64,000 nucleotides of DNA from Magnetococcales bacterium. Lineage in GTDB: Bacteria > Pseudomonadota > Magnetococcia > Magnetococcales > JADFYX01. The notes under the pieces are model-generated. The model searched no databases. It was not told where the DNA came from and saw only the letters and a program-made list of their open reading frames with translations. Location: assembly GCA_015232365.1 (NCBI GenBank), contig JADFZU010000004.1, positions 1 to 64,000 of the forward strand. The letters run 5' to 3'. Each line of letters starts with the position of its first letter. The stretch's first letter is position 1. The position numbers and the translations under genes were made by a program. This document shows positions 2,781 to 64,000 of this stretch, piece after piece.

Positions 2781-4856
2781 ATGACTAAACAGCCTCTTTT
2801 TTTTGTAGTAGATGACGATTCAGTTACAAGGCTCATGCTCTGTAGGTTTTTAGAGCAGTTGGGGTATGCAACTCTTGGTCTTAATAACGGTAAAGAGGCT
2901 CTTGCAGCTTTAGATAATGGGCTGCCTGATATTGTCTTGATGGATGCCAAAATGCCAGTGATGAATGGTTTTGAAACCCTGGCAGTCATGAAGAGCCGCC
3001 CTGATACAAAAAATATTCCTGTGCTAATGATTACCGGGCTAAATGATGACGCTTCGGTGGATGATGCCTACGGTGCAGGAGCTGCTGATTTTATTCCCAA
3101 ACCGATCCATTGGGCTATTCTTCGTAACCGGGTTCGCTATCTTCTTAAAGATATTGAGGCTGAGAGAAAGATCAATCTTGCATCCATCGTGTTTGACAAC
3201 ACCTCAGAGGGGATTGTTGTTACCAATTCAGAAGGGATTATTCAGTCGGTCAACCCAGCTTTTTCCATCATCACCGGTTATTTCCCTGAGGAAGTGCTGG
3301 GCAAAAGCATGAATATGGTTAGCTCTGGACGGCATAATAAAGCATTTTATAAAAAATTCTGGGACTCTTTAATGGTTTCTGGACGGTGGCAGGGGGAGTT
3401 TTGGAACCGGCGCAAGGATGGTTCGGTTTTTCCCCAGTGGGTAACAATCAGTGCTGTAAATGGGGCTGATGGTAAGTGTACGAACTATGTTGGAGTTTTT
3501 TCTGACCTTTCGGCATTAAAGGAGTCAGAGGCCAACCTACTCTATCTCTCTGGTCACGATACACTTACCGATCTCCCCAACCGCCATCTTTTCCAAGAGC
3601 GGCTGGCTTTGGCTTTGACTGAAGCTAAAGAGTGTAATGGCCGGGTTGGGGTAATGTTATTGGATCTGGACCGTTTTAAAGTGGTAAATGAGACCCTTGG
3701 TCATGATAAAGGCGACCAGCTTCTTGTCCAGGTTGGCAAGAGACTGACCAAATGTTTGACTCAGCCAGCCACATTAGGCCGAATGGGTGGGGATGAGTTT
3801 GGGGTGATTCTGCCACGAATGAAGCACTCTCAAGATGCGGCACGTATTGCTCAGGAAATGTTGGAGTCTTTAAAAAAACCTTTTCCAATAGATGGTGAGG
3901 AGATGGAGTTTTTTATCGGTGCCAGTATCGGTATTGGTCTGGCACCTTCGGATGGTGAAGATGTAAAAACACTCTTAAAGAGTGCTGATGCTGCTATGTA
4001 TCACGCCAAAGAGCAGGGACGAAATAATTTCCAGTATTATCGTGATGATCTAAATACCGCTTCCATGGCTAGAATGTTGATGGAGAGCAGCCTTCGTAGT
4101 GCATTGGACAAAGAGGAGTTTGTCCTCTATTATCAACCACAAATGGATGTGGCGACCGGTAAGCTGGTTGGAGCTGAAGCCTTGATCCGCTGGCAGCACT
4201 CTATGCAGGGGTTGATTGCTCCAGGAGAATTTATCACCCTGGCAGAAGAGACCGGCCTGATTGTCCCTATGGGGGAGTGGGCATTACGAACAGCATGTAA
4301 GCAGATGAAAAAATGGTCTAAGGCTGGACTGCCGCCTATCCGGGTTGCGGTCAACCTATCTGGTATTCAGTTTAAACAGCCAGACTTTACCGATTTGGTT
4401 CTTAAAATTATTAAAGAGACCGGCATAAAACATCGCTGGCTGGAGTTGGAGTTGACGGAAAGCATTGCTATGGGTGATGCTGAAGAGACTTTTCGCAAGT
4501 TAAATACCTTGTCAGAATATGATATACCACTGGCAATTGACGATTTTGGAACCGGCTTTTCATCATTGAGCTATTTGAAACGGTTCCCTTTTGGTACTCT
4601 AAAAATTGACCGTTCGTTTGTCCGTAACTGCACTACAGATGCTGAAGATGCGGCACTGGTCAGGACTATTATTGGCTTGGCTAATAGTTTGGGGCTGACG
4701 GTGATAGCTGAAGGAGTTGAAGAGCAGGATCATTTGGAGTTTTTGCGTGAACATGGTTGTAAAGAGATTCAGGGCTATCTATATGGTCGGCCTATGCCTG
4801 CCAAAGATTTTGCTACATTTATCAAAAATAATCCGGTTATGAAGGATGAAAATTAA
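2781..4856 (+). CDS. response regulator with PAS, GGDEF and EAL domains
   Basis: 691 residues. Receiver domain ~1-125 with phospho-acceptor Asp55 in VLMDAKMP; PAS domain ~140-255; diguanylate cyclase domain with an intact GGDEF motif at 336-340; phosphodiesterase domain with GAEAL (EAL at 466-468) and a conserved DDFGTGFSSL loop. Both catalytic domains keep their signature residues, so the protein could make or degrade cyclic-di-GMP, controlled by phosphorylation and a PAS ligand. There is no membrane segment. No histidine kinase gene is adjacent. The downstream metallopeptidase gene overlaps its 3' end by 11 bases. Confidence 0.93.
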   Translation: MTKQPLFFVVDDDSVTRLMLCRFLEQLGYATLGLNNGKEALAALDNGLPDIVLMDAKMPVMNGFETLAVMKSRPDTKNIPVLMITGLNDDASVDDAYGAGAADFIPKPIHWAILRNRVRYLLKDIEAERKINLASIVFDNTSEGIVVTNSEGIIQSVNPAFSIITGYFPEEVLGKSMNMVSSGRHNKAFYKKFWDSLMVSGRWQGEFWNRRKDGSVFPQWVTISAVNGADGKCTNYVGVFSDLSALKESEANLLYLSGHDTLTDLPNRHLFQERLALALTEAKECNGRVGVMLLDLDRFKVVNETLGHDKGDQLLVQVGKRLTKCLTQPATLGRMGGDEFGVILPRMKHSQDAARIAQEMLESLKKPFPIDGEEMEFFIGASIGIGLAPSDGEDVKTLLKSADAAMYHAKEQGRNNFQYYRDDLNTASMARMLMESSLRSALDKEEFVLYYQPQMDVATGKLVGAEALIRWQHSMQGLIAPGEFITLAEETGLIVPMGEWALRTACKQMKKWSKAGLPPIRVAVNLSGIQFKQPDFTDLVLKIIKETGIKHRWLELELTESIAMGDAEETFRKLNTLSEYDIPLAIDDFGTGFSSLSYLKRFPFGTLKIDRSFVRNCTTDAEDAALVRTIIGLANSLGLTVIAEGVEEQDHLEFLREHGCKEIQGYLYGRPMPAKDFATFIKNNPVMKDEN

Positions 4857-7230
4857 ATCTTTCATAGTTACAGTCCATGTTATGGTTTCCCTCTTTTTGA
4901 GTGTAGGCCATGGGCTATCTTACGCCTCTGGAATGGATGTTGTCGACCACTCTATTACAGTGGTGATAGATCCTGGCAGCAAGCATATAAAAGTTACCGA
5001 CACCATTAATATTCCCAATCAAGAACTTGCTGGTTTAGAAACCTCTGGGCTGTTGTTAAATGCTGGTTTACAGGTTACGACTTGGGAAGGGGCTACCATG
5101 GTCTCCCCGACAACTACAGAGTCGTGTGGTCAAGGAAGCTGTAACCGTTATTTTATAAAGATTGCTCCTGGTGCAAGCCAAACCGGGCAGCTCACCATGC
5201 ATTATCATGGCGAGTTAACCGATAGTTCATCACCAATTGAGGCTCAGGGAGTGAACTTGGGCGGAGCTTCGGTGTGGTATCCCCAGTTCGGGGCAGGGCT
5301 GTTGCGATTTGAGTTGACGGTATTACTGCCTGCAAAGTGGAAATCCGTCAGTCAGGGGCAGCAGGTTAATATCGCCTCTTCTGGTGACAGTTCCAAGAGT
5401 TTCTCTTGGTCAGGTTGGATAACAAGAGAGCCAAGCGACGAGATATCTCTGGTTGCTGGTCCATGGTTTGAATACAAAAAAAACATGGATGACGGAACAA
5501 CTCTGTTTGCCTTTTTCCGGGAAGATGACCCTGTCTTGGCTAAGAGTTATCTTGACTCTTCAGAAAAATATATAAAACTCTACAGTGATCTGCTTGGGCC
5601 TTATCCATATAAAAAATTTGCAGTTGTAGAGAACCACCGTCAGACCGGTCTTGGTATGGCATCGTTTACCCTGTTAGGGTCTAAGGTTCTGCGTTTGCCA
5701 TTTATTCTAAATAGTTCATTGCCCCATGAAATTTTGCATAACTGGTGGGGTAATGGAGTTTTTGTTGATTATAAAGAGGGTAACTGGAGCGAGGGCCTAA
5801 CCGCATATCTTGCCGATTATTGGTTACAGGAACGTCTAGGTAACGGAGTCGCTTATCGGCGGAATACTCTGATTGGTTATGGTGATTTTGTCGGAGAATC
5901 CAACGATTTTTCTCTGGAAAATTTTCACTCCAGGCATGATAAGTCCTCCCAAGCGATTGGCTATGGCAAAGGGGCGTTTTTATTTCATCAACTCCGTAAC
6001 ATTATTGGTGATGAACCTTTTGTTGCCGGGCTTCGCTATTTTTACCGGGAGAATAAGTTTAAACGGGCCTCATATGCTGATTTGCAGAGTAGTATGCTTT
6101 TAGCTTCTGAGCAGAATTTGAGTGAATTCTTCAGGCAGTGGACCAAGCGGGTCGGTGCTCCAGATTTAAAATTGGTCAATGCTAATGTAAAGGTAATTGC
6201 TGGCAATAAATTTAAAATAACCGTTACTCTTTGGCAGCTCGGTGATGCACCGCCATATCAGTTATTGATCCCTTTTACAGTGACTCAGGTAGGGGCGCCA
6301 GAGCCGGTAGTTTTTTGGCGAACAATGTCTGAACCATCACAAAGTTTTGAATTTACTACTAACCTGCGGCCTATGCGTCTTGATGTTGATCCCAGTTATG
6401 ATATTTTTCGTAAGTTGCACCCAGAGGAGCGTCCGGTCACTCTCTCCAAGGCGTTTGGAGCTAAACGTGGCTTGATTATCTATCCTGGAGAGGCGAAAAA
6501 AAAGGCAGTTGAGGCATACCGTCAGGTCGCAATAGCCTGGAATCTTGGCATCACTCCAGATGATGCAACCTCTGATTTGCCAACCGACCGAACGGTATGG
6601 TTGTTTGGCAAGTCCAACCGTTTTGGCCCTAAATTATTGGAGTCTCTCTATAAGTTTGATGTAGGTGAAGGGGTGCAGACCAGACGGATAAAAATTAATG
6701 ATGAATGGTATGATGATAGAAAAGAGGCAATAGTTTTAGTTGGCAATAATCCTGATGATAAAAAATCTACTCTTGTTCAGATAATGAGCAGGCCGGAAAA
6801 ATTTCCAGATCTTTACCAAATTCTAGCTAAAAAGCTGCCCCATTATGGTAGTTACAGTTATATGGTTTTTTCAGCTCCAGACGGTATAAACAAAATAAAA
6901 GGCCAGTGGCCATCAACCGGATCACCACTCAGTGTCACCTTTGATACAGACGGCCTATCTCGTCAGGCAAAAGAGCCGCCCAGGCCTCGTCCTGTGACGA
7001 TTTTAGAAGTTCCGTTACCGGAGCACTCATATACAATAAAAGCAGACCCTGAACAGCCAGAGGCAACTACGTTAACTCCACAAAGAGTTGTTCTTCCCGA
7101 TTCAGAAACCGAGCTTCTCCTGCCAGAAGATCCAAATAGCAATCTTCAGTTTATAAAAAAACCCAATCGTGGAATGAAAGGTAGCGACCTATTTCAAAAA
7201 CCGGTGGCAGTTCCTTTGTCGTCAGACTAA
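4846..7230 (+). CDS. M1-like (gluzincin) metallopeptidase, exported
   Basis: 794 residues. An N-terminal signal peptide (~1-28) precedes a beta-rich domain and a gluzincin catalytic domain with HEILH at 294-298 and a glutamate at 316 in WSEGLTAY as the likely third zinc ligand, one residue closer than in classical M1 enzymes. The MASFTLLG segment before the site is in the place of the M1 GxMEN exopeptidase motif but does not match it, so it may not be a classical aminopeptidase. A ~300-residue C-terminal region is unassigned and Pro-rich at the end. Translation is probably coupled to the upstream signalling gene. Confidence 0.85.
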   Translation: MKIKSFIVTVHVMVSLFLSVGHGLSYASGMDVVDHSITVVIDPGSKHIKVTDTINIPNQELAGLETSGLLLNAGLQVTTWEGATMVSPTTTESCGQGSCNRYFIKIAPGASQTGQLTMHYHGELTDSSSPIEAQGVNLGGASVWYPQFGAGLLRFELTVLLPAKWKSVSQGQQVNIASSGDSSKSFSWSGWITREPSDEISLVAGPWFEYKKNMDDGTTLFAFFREDDPVLAKSYLDSSEKYIKLYSDLLGPYPYKKFAVVENHRQTGLGMASFTLLGSKVLRLPFILNSSLPHEILHNWWGNGVFVDYKEGNWSEGLTAYLADYWLQERLGNGVAYRRNTLIGYGDFVGESNDFSLENFHSRHDKSSQAIGYGKGAFLFHQLRNIIGDEPFVAGLRYFYRENKFKRASYADLQSSMLLASEQNLSEFFRQWTKRVGAPDLKLVNANVKVIAGNKFKITVTLWQLGDAPPYQLLIPFTVTQVGAPEPVVFWRTMSEPSQSFEFTTNLRPMRLDVDPSYDIFRKLHPEERPVTLSKAFGAKRGLIIYPGEAKKKAVEAYRQVAIAWNLGITPDDATSDLPTDRTVWLFGKSNRFGPKLLESLYKFDVGEGVQTRRIKINDEWYDDRKEAIVLVGNNPDDKKSTLVQIMSRPEKFPDLYQILAKKLPHYGSYSYMVFSAPDGINKIKGQWPSTGSPLSVTFDTDGLSRQAKEPPRPRPVTILEVPLPEHSYTIKADPEQPEATTLTPQRVVLPDSETELLLPEDPNSNLQFIKKPNRGMKGSDLFQKPVAVPLSSD

Positions 7231-7265: not shown

Positions 7266-7422
7266 AGATTTGGCAGTTGTTCGTACATTACTAGCACAAC
7301 CTCTTGATGCACTTGGCAAGTCAGAAAAAAGTTTCATCACCAATAAGGTGGTTTCGATTTTTCCTGATTCACCAGATAAACCAATATGTTATGTCATTAA
7401 TGCACGCCATATTTCTGAATCT
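7266..7422 (+). repeat. dispersed inverted-repeat-ended element, copy 1
   Basis: About 157 bp that closely match segments at 46327-46486 and 61780-61934. It begins AGATTTGGCAGTTG and ends with an inverted version of that end (..TTCTGAATCT). The interior shares the TCACCAATAAGGTGGTTTCG and GATTCACCAGATAAACC blocks with the other copies. It has no coding capacity of its own, which fits a MITE-like non-autonomous element or a large REP-like repeat. It lies between the metallopeptidase and the next gene, whose frame is open backwards into the repeat by chance. Confidence 0.8.
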
Positions 7423-7456
7423 TGGTTACATTAGAATGGATAATTGGAGAGTTGAA

Positions 7457-8383
7457 ATGGCTAAAAAACTAGTTCTACGTGCTTCAGCTAAAATCCAAGA
7501 TCTCTTTGGAGAGTTTAATCCTGGTTGTGAAAAGTTTGAAGCTAGTGGGGTTGTTAAACGTAACGATGATATTTTGGTGGTTTTTGATAGTTGTCTGCAG
7601 ATTGCCCAGTTGACCATAGATGGACCATCGACAAAGCCGGTTTTTAACGGTAGGGCATGGATTATTCCCACACTTACCAATGTTGAAGATGTTAAAGGTT
7701 TTGAGGGGATTACCCGTAACCGGATGTTAGGTGATGATAAGCTCTACATGGTTGCCGAGTCTCTTGAGAGAAGTGACGAAAAAGGTAAAAAATTTTATAA
7801 CGGTAAAGTTGTCACTCTAGATCAGAGTTATAGTGGGGCAGGGGAGTGGTTGGACTATAGGCTGCCTAGTTCAAACAAGGGGTTTGAGGGAGTTGCTGTC
7901 ATTACCAGCCCAGGTAAAAAAAAACCACGGCTTTTTGCTCTATGTGAGGGAAATCGTTGCCGGGCAGGAGAGGCGGGCAAAAAACCAGGAAAGGGGAGAA
8001 TCCGGGTTTTTAAACCAGGTGATGGCAAATGGATACACCTAGGTAAAATGTCCCTTCCTGAGCAGGTAAAGTTTATCGACTATTCCGACCTGGATATAGT
8101 AATAAATACCAAAGGCACTGAAGCTGTTGTGGCAGTGCTCTCTCAGGCCAGTAGGCAACTCTGGGTTGGGAAGCTGGGTATGCCATCTTTCAAGTGGCAG
8201 GGCCAAGGAAAGATTTACAACTTTCCGAGTAAGAGTAAAGGTAGTTTCTGCACAGTTGAGGGTGTGTCTTGGTTGGACGATAAATGCAACAAAATTATAG
8301 TGGTGTCCGATAAGAGAAAGAGTGACCATCCTGAAGGCTGCAAAAATTATGAGCAATCTATTCATCTGTTTGAGTTGCCGTAG
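7457..8383 (+). CDS. predicted beta-propeller protein, unknown function
   Basis: 308 residues from the ATG at 7457, which has a GGAGAG site 6 bases upstream. The frame continues open to 7304, but that extension lies in a repeat element and is rejected. The protein is beta-rich with repeated blade-like segments, including KGFEGITRN and KGFEGVAVI, which resemble the FEG(I/V) pattern of phytase-like or DUF3616-type propellers. No signal peptide is seen from this start. The family assignment is tentative. It sits outside the magnetosome operons, convergent with the cyclic-nucleotide-binding gene. Confidence 0.7.
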   Translation: MAKKLVLRASAKIQDLFGEFNPGCEKFEASGVVKRNDDILVVFDSCLQIAQLTIDGPSTKPVFNGRAWIIPTLTNVEDVKGFEGITRNRMLGDDKLYMVAESLERSDEKGKKFYNGKVVTLDQSYSGAGEWLDYRLPSSNKGFEGVAVITSPGKKKPRLFALCEGNRCRAGEAGKKPGKGRIRVFKPGDGKWIHLGKMSLPEQVKFIDYSDLDIVINTKGTEAVVAVLSQASRQLWVGKLGMPSFKWQGQGKIYNFPSKSKGSFCTVEGVSWLDDKCNKIIVVSDKRKSDHPEGCKNYEQSIHLFELP

Positions 8384-8429: not shown

Positions 8430-8882
8430 CTACATTCTAACTCTTAAGCGTTCAGTTAGTTTGTCAATCCTGCTGATCATCTTTAGAATGCACTGATCTT
8501 TGATTTTTTCCCTTATTTCACAACCTAAACGTTGTAGAGAGTCTTGATCTAGACGAAAGAGAAAAACACTATCATGGGCAACTACAGAGGTGCTTCTTTT
8601 GGTGTTGGCGAAAAAGGCCATCTCTCCAAAAATCTCACCTTTCTCCATGTAGTTAAGTTCTACTCCTTGTTTAACTGTCGCAACTTTTCCCGTTAATAGT
8701 ATATAAAAACAGGTGTCTTTTTTACCCTCAGCTATAATCCGTGTTCCCGGGCCAAAAGTGACAAAACCGCCTTGAAAGCTAGCCATCCTCTTTTTTTCAT
8801 AGAGAGAAAAAGGTTCAAAGAATGGAATCATCTTCATCATATCAACAATTTGTTCTTGGGAGTAACCAGCAACTGTTGTCAT
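8430..8882 (-). CDS. cyclic nucleotide-binding domain protein, last gene of the mamXZ operon
   Basis: 150 residues consisting almost only of a cNMP-binding (CRP-type) beta-barrel: the phosphate-binding cassette appears as GEIFGEMAFFANTKRST, with the conserved GE and R residues. There is no helix-turn-helix, kinase or channel segment, so it is a stand-alone sensor or adaptor. Its ATG overlaps the stop of mamZ (TAATG), making it the third gene of a mamX-mamZ-cNMP operon. Co-translation suggests a link between cyclic nucleotide level and iron or redox handling at the magnetosome, but that link is inferred only from position. Confidence 0.88.
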   Translation of the reverse strand: MTTVAGYSQEQIVDMMKMIPFFEPFSLYEKKRMASFQGGFVTFGPGTRIIAEGKKDTCFYILLTGKVATVKQGVELNYMEKGEIFGEMAFFANTKRSTSVVAHDSVFLFRLDQDSLQRLGCEIREKIKDQCILKMISRIDKLTERLRVRM

Positions 8883-10813
8883 TAAATTTTTCTCCCTTTT
8901 TTTTCTTTAATTTGCTTCCACCTATATGCCAAAAGGGTAAAAACTGCGATAGCATATACATATGGTTCGCCATTTTCATGAGTTGCCGCCAACCAAAAAT
9001 GCAGGGCGATCAAGATGTTGACCAAGTATACTGATTTATGTATTTTTTTCCACTTTTCATTACCAAGCTCACGGCGTTTGCTTTTTGTCGAGGTCACGGC
9101 TAAAACGATTAAAATAGCAAACGCAAGCATACCAAGAATGATAAATGGCCGCTTGCTGATATCATCAATAATTTCGTGTAAGTTGAATAACCACTCCAAC
9201 CAAAAATATGTGGCCACATGAAGAGAGGCATAGAAAAATGCATAGAGGCCAATCATCCGTGAGTACTGCATCAGAAGCTTTACTTTGGTGATCTCTGCTA
9301 CAGGTCTCAGTGCCAAAGAGAGCAGAATAAAGTTAAAAGCCCAATCTCCAAGATAGCGGTTGATAAAGCCCACAGGCATCTGTCCTAGGGAGCTTCCAGG
9401 GGTAATGCCGCCAATCATTATTCTACCGACAAGCCAGATGATTGGAAGTAGAGAGAACATGAAAAGCAACGGTTTTAAATTGGAGCGACTCTTTTTTTCC
9501 AGTTTATGTTCCCGGCTTTCATCCATACCGCTTTTAATCAGCCATAAGGCGTATAGCATAACCAGAAGGTTGCTAGCCCCAATAAGAATAAATGGTGCTT
9601 TAGGGCCAACGGCATCAAAGTAATAGCCGCCGCTTTGGACCAGCATTACTACGCCAATTCCACTTACTAAAAAGAGCACCCCCTGTACCGAACCAAGCAC
9701 ATGTTTTGGAGCTAATTCAGCAGCTAGGATTTTTGGTGCAATCAGGCAGCCAGCTTGACCAATGCCAACCAGTAGTAGTGGGAACAACATCGTGTGCCAA
9801 TCAAATGGATTGGAGACCAACCAGCCAATAGCAACAAACCCCAATCCAGTTAATGAGAGGCTGGCTCCAATAGCGGAAATTCGGCTATTTGTCTCCATAT
9901 AACGACGCCACATTGGCATGGCTATTAGAATTACCAGGCCAATATATCCCAACATCAAACTGGCTTGTCCAGCGGCAAAAGCCCTGGAAACTCCTACAAC
10001 ATCAGCAAAAGAGATAAACCATAAGGATAGAAACAGGCTGATAACCAACATGTCAGCCCGAACATAAAAAGCTGCAGCAAAACAGAGCTGCATACGAGGG
10101 TCGCTTGAGATTAGCTCCCATGCTTGAGCAAAAGGAAGTTGGGTAGATGCTTCTTTTACAGGTTGCTGTTTTGGCATGTAGCGGTTGACAATATATGCTC
10201 CGGCACAGGCTACAAAAAATGGTATAAGCATAATAGCCGGGACGCTGTCTATACCTTTTGGGATCTGCATGAGAATTGCACAAATAACAGTGCTGCCCAA
10301 AGCCATCATGGTGATCATATTGGGAAGAAGAATTGGTTTTTTCTGGTAGAGGGTTGCATCTCCACCTAGTGTTGAGAGTTGCATCTGGACGGTGTCGGTA
10401 CCAAGAGAGATAAGAATCCGCATTATGTAGTAAAATGTCAGACTGCTAAAGCCGATTACTACCTCAATGTTTTTACTGAACGGGACTAAAGCAGCACCTA
10501 ATGCCGCCAATAAAAAACCGTAAAATACCGACTTCAGTCTTTTGCTGTTACTCCAGTATGGGCCAAGAAAAAAAATAAGGGCCAAACTGATGATTTGTGT
10601 TACCACCTGCAAGTGGGCGTTAATGGTTCCCTCTTCCTCGTAAGGGATGACAATAACCTCATCAAGAAATAGCGGTTGCAAGGCGACAGTTAGAGATATT
10701 ACCAGTGTGCTAACAGCCGAAACAAGATAGAACGTAGTCCAATCCTTTTGCTCTAAAGCACTCTTATATGGTGTAGCTTCCAGGCCATCAAATTCATTTT
10801 TATCCATATCCAT
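8882..10813 (-). CDS. mamZ: MamZ: MFS transporter fused to a ferric reductase-like membrane domain
   Basis: About 643 residues. The N-terminal ~430 residues form a major-facilitator transporter with ~12 membrane segments, closely resembling MamH of this window. The C-terminal ~200 residues are a YedZ/MsrQ-type haem-binding domain (RYLGDWAFNFILLSLALRP, a His in YASLHVATYFW and another in IALHFWLAATH). This fusion is diagnostic of MamZ, a magnetosome protein thought to transport iron and reduce it. The start is placed at ATG 10813, preceded by AAGGG; a GTG at 10852 would overlap mamX. It acts with MamX and MamH in known systems. Confidence 0.93.
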   Translation of the reverse strand: MDMDKNEFDGLEATPYKSALEQKDWTTFYLVSAVSTLVISLTVALQPLFLDEVIVIPYEEEGTINAHLQVVTQIISLALIFFLGPYWSNSKRLKSVFYGFLLAALGAALVPFSKNIEVVIGFSSLTFYYIMRILISLGTDTVQMQLSTLGGDATLYQKKPILLPNMITMMALGSTVICAILMQIPKGIDSVPAIMLIPFFVACAGAYIVNRYMPKQQPVKEASTQLPFAQAWELISSDPRMQLCFAAAFYVRADMLVISLFLSLWFISFADVVGVSRAFAAGQASLMLGYIGLVILIAMPMWRRYMETNSRISAIGASLSLTGLGFVAIGWLVSNPFDWHTMLFPLLLVGIGQAGCLIAPKILAAELAPKHVLGSVQGVLFLVSGIGVVMLVQSGGYYFDAVGPKAPFILIGASNLLVMLYALWLIKSGMDESREHKLEKKSRSNLKPLLFMFSLLPIIWLVGRIMIGGITPGSSLGQMPVGFINRYLGDWAFNFILLSLALRPVAEITKVKLLMQYSRMIGLYAFFYASLHVATYFWLEWLFNLHEIIDDISKRPFIILGMLAFAILIVLAVTSTKSKRRELGNEKWKKIHKSVYLVNILIALHFWLAATHENGEPYVYAIAVFTLLAYRWKQIKEKKGRKI

Positions 10814-10823
10814 AGACAGACCC

Positions 10824-11591
10824 TTACTCCTCTTCATGGGCAAGGGCTGCACCTGGTTCCCACATTCCGATCATATGTCCATTGCGCAGGTTACACAGTT
10901 GACCATTGACTGATATAGTTCTCACATACTGCATCTGAGGATTTCGCTGACCTATCTCTTTATATGCCGTCCCTTTTACAAATAGCCCAGTCTGCACACT
11001 ACACTCCTCTTTTTGTAAAAACCAATTTGGAGCCAAGTTATACCATGCGGGTTTGTTGATGCCATCGTTAATCAGTACGTTGATGTTTTCTCGTCCTGAC
11101 TGAACGGTTTTTGACAGAACTCGGATAATTTTGCCCTGAAAGCGGGTAATACCAAACCGCTCGTGCCACTCTGGGTCGAGGGTTGGATCTGGTCTGGGCA
11201 TAAGAGGAATACGTTGGGCAACTGCAATGGTTTTTGCTGTTTTATTCCCGGTTGCTGTTTTTGGGGGTTGTACAGTTTTTCTGGCAACAATTTTATGGCA
11301 ATGGGTGCAGAGCTGCTTTTCCCGTCCATCACGGTGGGGTGGAACAGCATTGCGGACGATAGCTGGCACAACTTTGGAGCGGCCTGACAGAGTTGGGGAG
11401 ATTATTTCATGACAGCTTGAGCAGACCATTTTTTGTCGACCAGCCCTATGTGGCGAGGCAACGCCAGCAGCAATGGGTGGGACGTTATCGTATACATGGT
11501 CTTCCCATGGGTCATTTTTAAAAATTGAGAGTAACAAAAGGCCGATGCCGAAGACAATTCCGACGGCCATAATCCATTCGGCAATATTCAA
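10824..11591 (-). CDS. mamX: MamX: magnetosome c-type cytochrome with two magnetochrome motifs
   Basis: 255 residues. An N-terminal membrane anchor (~4-24) is followed by two magnetochrome CXXCH motifs, CSSCH at 57-61 and CTHCH at 95-99, each with the family's preceding PHR(A/D)GR segment. The C-terminal ~120 residues match the MamS-type domain also seen in the gene at 31139. MamX is a redox protein needed for proper magnetite growth together with MamZ. The start codon appears to be TTG at 11591, weakly supported by an upstream GGAAT; no ATG gives a complete signal anchor. First gene of a - strand operon. Confidence 0.93.
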   Translation of the reverse strand: MNIAEWIMAVGIVFGIGLLLLSIFKNDPWEDHVYDNVPPIAAGVASPHRAGRQKMVCSSCHEIISPTLSGRSKVVPAIVRNAVPPHRDGREKQLCTHCHKIVARKTVQPPKTATGNKTAKTIAVAQRIPLMPRPDPTLDPEWHERFGITRFQGKIIRVLSKTVQSGRENINVLINDGINKPAWYNLAPNWFLQKEECSVQTGLFVKGTAYKEIGQRNPQMQYVRTISVNGQLCNLRNGHMIGMWEPGAALAHEEE

Positions 11592-11727: not shown

Positions 11728-12039
11728 TTACTTTTTTGAAGGTTTTTCATACATGATCATATGAATAATGGTCATGCCGACAAAAGCCCAAGCAGCAATA
11801 GGGTGTATACGCATGGGGCGTAAAATTTTCAGGCCGGTCAACATAGAAACTGCTAATGAGCTTGCCATACCTGCTTTAACTACCTCACGACCCCTGCGGC
11901 GTTGATTTGAGCTTTTTCTGGAGTTTTGTCGGACAATTTTTCTTCTTTCCCGTTCTGCATTTTTTGCCCTGCTTACTGGAATCTCTACAGTAGTTGATTC
12001 TAACTTCTCTATTTGTAGTTCAGATGTTTTTGCATCCAT
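11728..12039 (-). CDS. small basic membrane protein of the magnetosome island, unknown
   Basis: 103 residues: a charged N-terminal half with a very basic block (~26-52, rich in Arg/Lys) and a hydrophobic C-terminal half with two possible membrane helices. The second helix carries two histidines ten residues apart (RIHPIAAW and IIHMIMYE), a spacing reminiscent of haem-ligating helices in cytochrome b561/DUF4405-type proteins. GAGAAAAG lies before the ATG. It is flanked by mamX downstream and a terminator-like hairpin upstream, so it may be its own unit. I do not recognise it as a named Mam protein. Confidence 0.65.
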   Translation of the reverse strand: MDAKTSELQIEKLESTTVEIPVSRAKNAERERRKIVRQNSRKSSNQRRRGREVVKAGMASSLAVSMLTGLKILRPMRIHPIAAWAFVGMTIIHMIMYEKPSKK

Positions 12040-26316: not shown

Positions 26317-28851
26317 ATGGTGGTGAGTGATAATAAGGCGCAGAATTCGTCTGTTGAGCTTGATTCTCAGCAACTCTACGGAGTTGGGGCGGATACTCAT
26401 GCCACCACACCAAGTCTGAGAGGCTCTACAACTGATATCGGGCAAACAGCATCTTTTGCCGAAAGAGTTCCTGATATGGTTCAGGCCAACCCATATAGTG
26501 GTATTAGCCTGAGACCGATGGGGATGAAAGAGAGTAAAGAGTTAGATAGTCTGCAAGGCCAGGATCTGCGAAATATTGAAAAAGATATTTCTGTTGGTAG
26601 TGATCCCCATCAACAACCTGCTTCGGCATCTAGTCAGCAGCCTGTTCCTACTGCTGACGAGCAGAGATGGCTTGATCGACTTGCTAGAACTGACAAATTG
26701 ATGAGCACAGTGATGCGTGGTTATCACCCGGCCACCACTACACCTAAAAAAACTAATCCTGCGTTTGCAAAGATTGATAAAAATCCTAAAGTAGAGCAGG
26801 CAGAGGCTGCTGGAGTTGATAATGATCCGGTTGTCAGTCGCCCTGGTAAAAAACAACTCGACGATGATCTGGCTGCACTTCATAAGGCAAAAAAAGGTAG
26901 TATTGCTGATACGCCAACTCCTAAGGCAAAGGTTGAACCACAAGCTCTTGCTGATAATGGAGAAGATGTTAAACTTGCAACTGCAACCATTACCGAGATA
27001 TCTGATAATATAAAGTCAACGGCTGTTGTCAGTAAACCTAAGGTTAGAACTCAACCGAGGATACTGAAAACGGCTCCAGAGACTCTTGATATTATCAACG
27101 ATGTAACTGGAACTGAGTCTAAGTTAGAGCCAGTTGTTAACAGTAAGCCAGTTGTTAACAGTAAGCCAGTTGTTAACAGTGAGCCAGTTGTTACAAGCCC
27201 TGAATTGCCGGCTGAAGAAGTCAAAGAGGAGTCTGCACCTGTTGTTGCTGGTGTGGCGATACGGTCGGCATCTACTTTAGATAAGATTAAAGAGATAGCT
27301 GATGCTATTAAGCAGAAAAGTGTTCCTGACTCTGTTGGTAAGATCCTTGAAACTGCAACAGGTCTGGAGTCTAAAACTGATTTAAGTTCTAAGAAAGCAG
27401 AAGATGTTGCTCCAGTTGTTGCCCCAATACCGGCTTTAGTAGACTCAACACCAAAATATGTTGAAGCAGTCAAACCGACCCAAGCACCTCTTAAAATAGT
27501 ACCACCACAACAAAAAGCGGCAGTTCCTGACCCGGTACCTTCTTTCTCTAAGCCGCAGTCTGAATTAGAGAAGATAGTTTTGTCTGCACCAAGCCAGGTA
27601 GTCAGCAGTAAAAATACCAGTAGTGCGATAGAAAAAAGTTTCCCTAAATTGGTAAGGGGTGATGGAGATTATCCTGGTGAGGTTGAGAAGCCAAGAACTG
27701 TATCTATAGTGGCGGTTGTGCCTGAAGTTGATCCTGGTAATAATGAAGAGGCTGTTGAGGTAAAAAAACCTACATCAAGTGTGACTAAACTTCATAAGAA
27801 GCCTGGTAAGAAAAAAGACCTTGTTTCACTATGCCGTGAACAAGCGGCTAAAAACCTCCCAGCAGTTAAACCGGCTCCAGAGAAAGTTGCTGCCAAGGAT
27901 CATCAACCAGCAGTAGAGATGGTTTCAGAGCCAGTTGCTGCCAAGGTTCAGCAACCAGAAGTAGATATGGTTTCAGAGCCTGTTAAGGTTGATAGAGAAA
28001 CTCATGCTTCGGCAGAAGATCCCAGTGCCACAAAGTTTGAAGTTTCGGCATTAGTGAAAGACTCTTTTAAAAATCAATTTAGCCATGGTCACATAGCGGA
28101 GAAACTACCTGAGTTTGAGGTTTTACCTGCTGATAGCCGGACAGAGAAAAATGATCGTGGTCTGGTTCGTGACAGTTTAAAAAAGAGTTATGGCCGTGAA
28201 GGGCCAAATGATCTTGGGTTCTATTTTTTCTCTGGTTTAGATTTTCTCAGGCGGATTTCCAGTTCAGCTATAGATGGTTATCTATCTGCTACCGCAATGG
28301 ATGGCAAAATAAAATATAAATACTGTGTGGAGCGTGGTAACTCATTTGCCAAATCAGGTCAGAATAAACGGGCGGCACGTTATTTTGAGATGGCTCTTAA
28401 AGAGCGACCTGATAGTAAAGAGTTTTTAGCAACTCTTGGTGTATGTTATCTTCATACAAATCGTTTGGACGATGGTGTCCAATGTATTGAAATAGCTGAG
28501 AAGAGTGGTATAACTCTACCACGATTGGATGAAATATTGGCTACAGCCTATCTTCGTCAGGGGGAAAACTCCAAAGCAGTTGCCAGATTGGAAAAAGCCT
28601 TGTTAGTATCTTCCGGCAGTTTTAATCTGAATTTTCGTTTGGCTCTCGCATTGGATAAGATGGGAGAGTATAATAGGGCTTTTCAGGCTTTTGAAAGAGC
28701 TCTCAAAATTAATCCAGAAAGTGCCAAAGCAAACCGCTCCATGGGGTTTAGTCTAGAGCAGGCTGGTAAACGGGATTTAGCAGTTAAATATTTTAAACGG
28801 GCCGCTGAATTAGAAGATAGCTCGATAGATAATTTTGCCGGGGTTGAATAA
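26317..28851 (+). CDS. giant MamA-like protein: long disordered N-terminus plus MamA-type TPR domain
   Basis: 844 residues. Residues 1 to ~630 are low-complexity, Pro/Val/Lys/Glu-rich and predicted disordered, with a triple PVVNSK repeat and paired AAKxxQPxVxMVSEP units. Residues ~631-844 align end to end with MamA: LRRISSSAIDGYLSA corresponds to its VTVAAINGFNSLF, followed by TPRs ending YFKRAAELEDSS, like FKKAAHLEDG. ATG 26317 has AAGGT seven bases upstream. It probably co-assembles with MamA through TPRs while the long arm reaches into the cytoplasm; that role is inferred. Confidence 0.85.
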   Translation: MVVSDNKAQNSSVELDSQQLYGVGADTHATTPSLRGSTTDIGQTASFAERVPDMVQANPYSGISLRPMGMKESKELDSLQGQDLRNIEKDISVGSDPHQQPASASSQQPVPTADEQRWLDRLARTDKLMSTVMRGYHPATTTPKKTNPAFAKIDKNPKVEQAEAAGVDNDPVVSRPGKKQLDDDLAALHKAKKGSIADTPTPKAKVEPQALADNGEDVKLATATITEISDNIKSTAVVSKPKVRTQPRILKTAPETLDIINDVTGTESKLEPVVNSKPVVNSKPVVNSEPVVTSPELPAEEVKEESAPVVAGVAIRSASTLDKIKEIADAIKQKSVPDSVGKILETATGLESKTDLSSKKAEDVAPVVAPIPALVDSTPKYVEAVKPTQAPLKIVPPQQKAAVPDPVPSFSKPQSELEKIVLSAPSQVVSSKNTSSAIEKSFPKLVRGDGDYPGEVEKPRTVSIVAVVPEVDPGNNEEAVEVKKPTSSVTKLHKKPGKKKDLVSLCREQAAKNLPAVKPAPEKVAAKDHQPAVEMVSEPVAAKVQQPEVDMVSEPVKVDRETHASAEDPSATKFEVSALVKDSFKNQFSHGHIAEKLPEFEVLPADSRTEKNDRGLVRDSLKKSYGREGPNDLGFYFFSGLDFLRRISSSAIDGYLSATAMDGKIKYKYCVERGNSFAKSGQNKRAARYFEMALKERPDSKEFLATLGVCYLHTNRLDDGVQCIEIAEKSGITLPRLDEILATAYLRQGENSKAVARLEKALLVSSGSFNLNFRLALALDKMGEYNRAFQAFERALKINPESAKANRSMGFSLEQAGKRDLAVKYFKRAAELEDSSIDNFAGVE
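27130..27195 (+). repeat. in-frame tandem 18-bp repeat in the giant mamA-like gene
   Basis: Three and a half copies of an 18-bp unit (CCAGTTGTTAACAGTAAG with one or two changes in the third) encode PVVNSK/E repeats. The near identity at DNA level suggests recent slippage, so this stretch may vary in copy number between strains. Confidence 0.85.
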
Positions 28852-62175: not shown

Positions 62176-64000
62176 ATGAATCCAATTTCCAAATTTACCA
62201 ACAACCGGGTTGTTACTGATGCCGGAGTATTCTTGTTCCTGCTAACGCTGTTGGTTGTTGGTCAGTGGTCAAGTGTATTTGAGAGGTGGGAGCTAGGGGC
62301 TTACGATTTGAGTTTGCGCTGGCGTATGGAAAAACCAGCCAATAGCGACAAAGTTGTGCAGATTCTAGCCAATGAAGAGGACCTTAACCAACTTGGCTGG
62401 CCTCTATCCGACCAGGTTTTAGCCAAGGTTTTAAATAAGCTTCATGTTGCAGCACCAAGAGTTATCGGGTTGGATTTTTACCGTGAGCAGCCCCGCCCTC
62501 CTGGACATGAAGAGTTGGTAGCTGCTTTTAAAAATGTCCCGGAAACTATAGCTGTTTTTAAATTTGGCGGCTCAAAAGCAAAAATGGTTCCACCTCCACC
62601 AGTTCTGGATGGTTTAGAGAGAAGCGGTTTTGCCGACTGGTTGGTTGATAGTGATGGGGTTGTCCGTCAGGGGCTTTTATATTTGAGCCGTGATGGTAGA
62701 GTCAGCTCCTCCCTTGCCCTACGTTTAGGGCTTGAATATCTGGCGGCAGATGGGATCACTGCCAAGCCCGACCCGGTCAACCCAAAATATTTACGCCTTG
62801 GTAAAACCACCCTGCGACCTCTAGGTGCAAAAGATGGTGGATATGCTGGCTCCAATAGCGGTGGATACCGTTTTCTTCTCGATTTTAGAGGAGGGGAGAA
62901 CCCCTTTCAGGTATACTCATTCCTTGATCTGCTAGAGGGACGAGTCCCTGCAGAGAAGATAGAAGACCGGATAGTTATTCTTGGCCCTGGTGCAGATAGC
63001 GTTAAAGATCAGTTCCTATCCCCGTTCAGCCTGGGTGGAAGTAGTGAAAATGCTTTCATGTTTGGCCCGGTTCTCCATGCCCATGCAGTTAACCAGTTAT
63101 TGCGTATTGCAGAGGGTGGCAGTGCCCAGATAATAACTATAAATGAGTTTTTTGAGCTTCTGTGGCTTTCATGCTGGATAGTTATGGGGTTGATTATCGG
63201 TAGAACTCCATTTAATACGGTTACTTTTGCCTGGCGTACCAGTTTAGCCGGTGTTGGACCTCTATTGATCCAGATAATTCTAATCCATGGGAATATCTGG
63301 TTGCCATCTGCGGTGGCTACCCTGGGCTTTGTTCTAGCAGCAATTCTAGCTACAGCCATGGCATCACATGAAGAGCGTAAACAGCGACGAATGCTGAGGT
63401 TTTTGTTGGACAAATCTGTTTCACCAGCAGTAGCTGAAGAGATTTTGGCAAATAGAGAGCAGGTAGTTGGTGGTGGAAAAATTCGTACCCAAAAGCTCAG
63501 TGCTTCGGTTCTATTTACCGACCTGGTAAACTTCACTCCAGTAGCTGAGCGTATGGAGCCGGAGGTGTTAATGCTCTGGCTTAATGAATATATGGGGGCT
63601 ATGGCTGGTAAAATCATGGTCAATGGAGGGGTGGTAGATAAATTTATTGGTGATGCTATAATGGCTCTCTTTGGTGTTCCTGTGGCAAGGGAGTCTGAGG
63701 AGGATATTGATCAGGATGTGGTTAATGCTGTCAGTTCTGCTATGGGCATGTGGGATATATTGGAACATGAGCTGATTCCGGCATGGAAAAAACGTGGCCT
63801 GCCTGAGATTTCAATGCGGGTTGGTATACACACAGGTATGTTGGTGGCTGGTGGTTTGGGACATGAGGAGAGAATGGACTATACTGTGCTTGGTGATACC
63901 GTCAACATTGCTGCCCGTTTGGAGAGTCTAAAGCCTGGGACTGAGTTTACAATTCAACCATCTATCTGTCGTATTCTTATCTCTGAGGCAGCTTGTGCCA
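62176..64000 (+). CDS. CHASE2-domain adenylate cyclase (3' end outside window)
   Basis: At least 608 residues, still open at the window end. N-terminal membrane helix (~15-33), an extracytoplasmic CHASE2 sensor (~35-310, with RVIGLDFYREQ), then membrane helices (~325-400) and a class III cyclase domain: metal-binding aspartate in VLFTDLVNFT, substrate lysine in VVDKFIGDAIMALFG, and YTVLGDTVNIAARLES. The Lys/Asp pair fits ATP rather than GTP. It could supply cyclic AMP read by the stand-alone cNMP-binding protein at 8430, though nothing links them directly. Confidence 0.9.
   Translation, partial: MNPISKFTNNRVVTDAGVFLFLLTLLVVGQWSSVFERWELGAYDLSLRWRMEKPANSDKVVQILANEEDLNQLGWPLSDQVLAKVLNKLHVAAPRVIGLDFYREQPRPPGHEELVAAFKNVPETIAVFKFGGSKAKMVPPPPVLDGLERSGFADWLVDSDGVVRQGLLYLSRDGRVSSSLALRLGLEYLAADGITAKPDPVNPKYLRLGKTTLRPLGAKDGGYAGSNSGGYRFLLDFRGGENPFQVYSFLDLLEGRVPAEKIEDRIVILGPGADSVKDQFLSPFSLGGSSENAFMFGPVLHAHAVNQLLRIAEGGSAQIITINEFFELLWLSCWIVMGLIIGRTPFNTVTFAWRTSLAGVGPLLIQIILIHGNIWLPSAVATLGFVLAAILATAMASHEERKQRRMLRFLLDKSVSPAVAEEILANREQVVGGGKIRTQKLSASVLFTDLVNFTPVAERMEPEVLMLWLNEYMGAMAGKIMVNGGVVDKFIGDAIMALFGVPVARESEEDIDQDVVNAVSSAMGMWDILEHELIPAWKKRGLPEISMRVGIHTGMLVAGGLGHEERMDYTVLGDTVNIAARLESLKPGTEFTIQPSICRILISEAACA

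Follow-up and report, generated by a model that had tools for sequence, protein, structure and literature searches.

A stand-alone cyclic-nucleotide-binding gene beside mamXZ in a Magnetococcales genome, probably one copy of an expanded and positionally labile family

In a Magnetococcales draft genome the magnetosome gene mamZ overlaps the start of a gene for a small cyclic-nucleotide-binding (CNB) protein. A preliminary description of this locus took the arrangement as a hint that cyclic nucleotides control the iron/redox proteins MamX and MamZ. Does the junction mark such a dedicated control switch, or is the pairing a local feature of one lineage? We addressed this question in a stretch of 64,000 nucleotides (the window) on contig 48 of the genome (G000; 2.84 Mb, 103 contigs, 82.7% complete), and in relatives that include four other species of the genus (G001 to G004).

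The gene and its junction with mamZ

The features on which the argument depends are as follows, in positions of the window.

8430-8882, minus strand: CNB gene, an open reading frame for a 150-aa stand-alone CNB protein (PF00027, E 1.4e-16; AlphaFold2 model; orthologues in G002 and G004 at 83%)
8882-10852, minus strand: mamZ, MFS and ferric-reductase-like membrane protein (PF07690, PF01794; NCBIfam MamZ, 878 bits)
10824-11591, minus strand: mamX, two magnetochrome haem domains (PF18509, two stretches; NCBIfam MamX, 321.9 bits, below the model cut-off of 400)
8880-8884, minus strand: TAATG junction, mamZ stop TAA (8882-8884) and CNB start ATG (8880-8882), one base common to both
8892-8896, minus strand: GGGAG, putative ribosome-binding site for the CNB gene, within the end of mamZ and 9 nt ahead of the CNB start
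8589-8627, minus strand: phosphate-binding cassette, residues 86-98 GEMAFFANTKRST with E87 and R96, aligning with the FGE...R of PKG CNB domains
8496-8516, minus strand: IREKIKD, residues 123-129, a motif of the long C-terminal helix (121-149)
7304-8383, plus strand: convergent phytase-like flank gene (start uncertain; PF13449 below cut-off)
2781-4856, plus strand: PAS-GGDEF-EAL response regulator of the chromosomal flank
4846-7230, plus strand: M1 peptidase-like protein of the chromosomal flank

The minus strand thus reads mamX (11591-10824), mamZ (to 8882) and the CNB gene (8882-8430). The identity of MamZ is secure, its NCBIfam score standing against a cut-off of 650 and both the MFS and the ferric-reductase domains being present; MamX scores below its cut-off (E 3.2e-96) and has both magnetochrome stretches. 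The overlap of mamX and mamZ amounts to 14 nt if mamZ begins at the ATG at 10837, which is the likely start because mamZ of G004 begins there. Elsewhere in the magnetosome cluster of G000, NCBIfam models matched MamH, MamE, MamK, MamM, MamN, MamO, MamP, MamA and MamQ, the matches of MamE, MamO, MamP and MamQ falling below the model cut-off.

The one-base overlap is as the preliminary description had it. Together with the fact that our scan listed no terminator-like site between the genes, it favours two readings. In the first, translational coupling keeps the CNB protein in proportion to MamZ, and the protein acts as a dedicated cyclic-nucleotide receptor that controls the iron/redox activity of MamXZ by binding the MamZ loops. 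In the second, it acts on a general target and is co-transcribed with mamXZ, which would provide a cAMP/cGMP sensor whenever magnetosomes are made; here the shared strand counts as well. The CNB gene, however, has a GGGAG of its own, which weighs against the first: coupling to mamZ is therefore possible and not required, and the gene may be read either way. A promoter scan of the window returned 14 promoter-like sites where 12.2 were expected, so these sites are uninformative.

Two further reading frames of the window deserve mention. A 103-residue frame before mamX (11728-12039, minus strand), with no Pfam or NCBIfam match, has a 53% relative upstream of mamX in G003 and a 62% piece elsewhere in G000 (L043:5583-5861), where a distant CNB gene and a gene that looks flagellin-like by eye lie close by. 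Right after mamA lies a gene for an 844-residue protein (26317-28851, plus strand) whose C-terminus (residues 633-834) matches MamA at 135 bits, below cut-off; it is possibly a MamA duplicate with a long extra N-terminus.

Domain, fold and binding residues

PF00027 is the sole Pfam domain of the protein (residues 41-119; 60.7 bits against a curated cut-off of 27.5), which bears out the description of it as a CNB domain only. An AlphaFold2 model built on 23 sequences (pLDDT 87.1, pTM 0.80) consists of N-terminal helices, a beta barrel that includes the cassette helix, and a single long helix (121-149). Among named entries, the CNB profile finds its closest matches in Magnetococcales MAGs. A pseudogene or chance reading frame was ruled out by the orthologues in G002 and G004, both of the same length and 83% identical, and by a dN/dS of about 0.05-0.07 at saturated dS (YN00), values that argue for a real gene under purifying selection; the window-G004 pair yields no ratio because its dS is saturated.

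The protein most resembles the CNB domains of PKA regulatory subunits and PKG, with which it shares the fold and the FGE...R cassette and which are its best PDB sequence matches; with cAMP or cGMP bound they are also, along with CRP/GlxR, the best Foldseek hits of the model. Unlike them it is bacterial and single-domain, and lacks a kinase, a second CNB domain and a docking region. To CRP/FNR proteins (MtbCRP, GlxR; VIA-align Z 16.2-16.5) it is similar in the CNB fold and the long helix after the barrel, but it has no DNA-binding domain and ends with helix 121-149. We accordingly rejected a CRP regulator: the 150 aa hold the Pfam CNB domain and no C-terminal HTH, and the NCBIfam CRP model gives 24.5 bits against 266. 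The Crp of a passage cited in our analysis is a transcription factor, unlike the CNB protein. Solved bacterial CNB entries of similar length and fold, 3gyd (Mfla_1926), 3mdp (Gmet_1532) and 5d1i (Brucella), are 17-26% identical to it in these alignments, and their titles give no function.

The Glu and Arg of the cassette, which we take to hold the ribose and the cyclic phosphate, are invariant in both of our alignments, in 18 of 18 rows of A1 and 23 of 23 rows of A2. A1 is the fairer count, the loci of A2 having been found partly through a pattern that spans the GE. Position 97 varies in A1 (S 9, T 3, N 3, V 2, Q 1; n=18), so the sequence does not point to one particular nucleotide. The loss of nucleotide-binding residues that would have spoken against the preliminary description is thus not seen, and since both residues are kept the protein likely binds a cyclic nucleotide.

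In the C-terminal helix R124, E125, K126, K128 and D129 are invariant in A1 (18/18), which, together with the model, makes this helix the likely signalling surface. A1 comprises 18 of 30 rows under 260 residues; the 12 rows left out (L095, L097, L098, L080, L081, L084, two of L086, two of L103, L043 and L044) retain the Glu and Arg by eye. IREKIKD was rejected as a family signature: it is invariant in A1 but absent in exact form from the distant members among the left-out rows, and A2, for which IREKIKD served as one search pattern, is no test of it.

Could the fold sense another ligand, such as c-di-GMP or a cyclic pyrimidine like cUMP, or none? The cUMP-bound CNB structure 8jsk_A (Z 16.8, rmsd 3.1, 142 aligned) shares the top VIA-align score with 3gyd_B (Z 16.8, rmsd 2.6, 144 aligned) and several others, and a PADLOC profile of Pycsar PycTIR matches at E 2.6e-12, over residues 38-121 only, its CNB part. 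An EAL/GGDEF gene lies in the flank, and a GGDEF gene occupies the same slot in G003. Against this, the Glu and Arg of the cAMP/cGMP cassette are intact and PKG and PKA domains are the best sequence matches in the PDB, so we consider a different ligand, or none, highly improbable. Effectors of the Pycsar anti-phage system are CNB domains fused to a TIR or membrane effector; the protein has neither, nor any other domain, and was not accepted as such an effector.

Conservation of the pairing in relatives

A CNB gene directly follows mamZ in two of the 25 mamZ loci that we examined, those of the window and of G004; among the other 23, the locus of G001 offers just 281 nt past mamZ. On this count we rejected a conserved mamX-mamZ-CNB trio, whose conservation the preliminary description had proposed to check. 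When 11 mamZ loci were followed over longer stretches (9-19 kb), the CNB gene of G004 was the only one present. The genome G009, which counts against a clean "none", encodes a two-CNB protein (L209:3-986) in the wider surroundings of a second mamZ copy (42-43% identity); the two genes converge and lie about 5.8 kb apart, and we took the former as unrelated to the pairing. That divergent copy (L209:6742-8598) is followed by a gene for a 1328-residue protein and by one that is response-regulator-like by eye, with the two-CNB protein further on.

Orthologues of the CNB gene occur in three of 48 genomes of the order, all within this genus (clade support 98/99), where the PAS-GGDEF-EAL and M1 peptidase-like flank is kept in all four other species. 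The order flank-CNB-mamZ-mamX is common to G000 and G004, with amino-acid identities of 83% for the CNB protein, 82% for MamZ and 80% for MamX; in place of the overlap G004 has a gap of 46 nt, so the overlap itself is not conserved. In G002 the same flank and the CNB gene are followed by a VTT/Pyr_redox gene; mamZ was not found in this genome (65% complete), which carries other magnetosome genes (a MamO piece at 78%, stretch L210). In G003 (99% complete) the order is flank-GGDEF-mamZ-mamX and there is no CNB orthologue; a HAMP-PAS-GGDEF gene (L045:7949-9625), 50 nt after mamZ, stands where the CNB gene would be. In G001 (82% complete) the flank is followed by the phytase-like and a DUF2189 gene, mamXZ lies on another contig, and we found neither an orthologue in the genome nor a CNB gene in the 281 nt past mamZ. 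The phytase-like gene adjoins the CNB gene in G000, G002 and G004, stands beside the DUF2189 gene in G001, and was not seen in the G003 stretch.

The pair is therefore broken in three of the five species of the genus, and in both directions: G002 has the gene without mamZ, and G001 and G003 have mamXZ without the gene, so each persists without the other. The genomes other than G003 are incomplete (65-90%), and some absences may consequently be gaps, most of all the missing mamZ of G002 and the missing CNB gene of G001. The gene's neighbours are thus not unrelated in all relatives, since G004 keeps the trio, and not the same in all either, given G002.

These comparisons bear on both readings introduced above. 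For the dedicated receptor, the same gene order in G004 and the intact cassette add support, but adjacency in two of 25 loci, the lack of one partner in three species (mamZ in G002, the CNB gene in G001 and G003), and the 46 nt that replace the overlap in G004 tell against it, and we regard it as quite unlikely. For a protein that is merely co-expressed, the shortness of the G004 gap speaks in favour, whereas the arrangement is not kept in G002 and no orthologue was found in G001 or G003; we hold this to be unlikely.

Known operons also differ. According to passages of PMC3847676, the MSR-1 operon runs mamY-mamX-mamZ-ftsZ-like, as had been said of model strains; this Magnetospirillum mamXY operon shares the adjacency of mamX and mamZ, and has no CNB gene as described in those passages. 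A component of the mamXYZ operon would be expected to stay beside mamXZ across magnetotactic relatives, and the CNB gene does not. Among the papers listed by our literature searches, none ties a CNB gene to mamXZ.

Paralogues expanded in number and labile in position

G000 contains 21 CNB matches at E<=1, two of them in one tandem-CNB protein. Besides the gene itself, four close paralogues (49-54% identity) lie on three contigs among unrelated genes: YCII and RF-2-like genes and, both assigned by eye, a glyoxalase-like/ECF-like slot and an ABC-transporter region. Such unrelated places weigh further against the dedicated receptor. In one paralogue line the domain follows, within the same protein, 330 residues that by eye resemble universal-stress domains; the sole Pfam match there is CNB. 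In the glyoxalase-like slot, G000 and G004 hold non-orthologous CNB genes, from different branches, between homologous flanks, indicating that CNB genes change place within the genus.

A CNB paralogue adjoins a YCII-like gene in L041:8070-8522, L090:5880-6332, L092:6265-6780 and L116:3683-4174, which represent G000, G003, G004 and a MAG of family f7; in three of the four stretches an RF-2-like gene is close by (Pfam in L041, the rest by eye). The neighbourhood of this paralogue is steadier than that of the copy adjoining mamZ. L042:4786-8343 encodes a protein of 1185 residues: two CNB domains lie at its C-terminus, and the N-terminal part, of about 860 residues, has no Pfam match. Two-CNB proteins of similar length recur in many Magnetococcales.

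Potential sources of ligand are numerous. Class III cyclases (PF00211) give 13 matches in G000 and 6-20 in the four other genomes of the genus, and one CHASE2-cyclase gene lies beside CNB paralogues in G002. The window itself ends within a class III cyclase domain (63499-64000, plus strand; G000:C48:63499-64074). The proposed control of MamXZ by cyclic nucleotides thus keeps part of its basis, namely a stand-alone CNB protein, E87 and R96 in every row of A1, and abundant cyclases, and loses the conserved tie to mamXZ; we give such direct control a small chance.

We regard as the best explanation, at a probability of about 0.62, that the gene is a single member of a Magnetococcales family of stand-alone CNB receptors, expanded in number and labile in position, and that its junction with mamXZ is itself labile. 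The pairing is then probably a local matter and no dedicated control switch. The family would consist of soluble receptors of about 150 residues that resemble single PKA/PKG-type CNB domains. The protein would most likely bind cAMP or cGMP, which the many class III cyclases of the cell would supply, and the ligand would alter the pose of the long C-terminal helix (IREKIKD...TERLRVRM), through which the protein may bind a partner or itself. Its place after mamZ would have arisen in this genus, where the end of the magnetosome cluster meets the chromosomal flank; the gene could ride on the mamXZ transcript, with a function independent of MamXZ.

Several points stand against this explanation, the incompleteness of every genome of the genus but G003 among them. 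G004 keeps the CNB-mamZ-mamX order with similar identities across all three proteins, and the pair thus occurs in more than one genome. Furthermore, G000, G003 and G004 suggest that the place of mamXZ beside the flank is old in the genus, and selection could therefore have favoured the arrival of the CNB gene next to mamZ. One may imagine that, in this one genus of magnetotactic cocci, a duplicated CNB receptor has joined the mamXZ transcript and uses cAMP/cGMP to gate the ferric-reductase/transport activity of MamZ. This would place magnetite formation under post-translational control by a second messenger, with the GGDEF gene of G003 as a different nucleotide-signal solution in the same slot; we find both the gating and its extension to G003 very doubtful.

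If the coupling were real, it would link a second messenger directly to magnetosome iron/redox proteins. The data serve better as a warning that a single shared base next to a well-known operon can be peculiar to one lineage, and they draw attention to the stand-alone CNB receptors of Magnetococcales, a large family, and to the class III cyclases of these bacteria.
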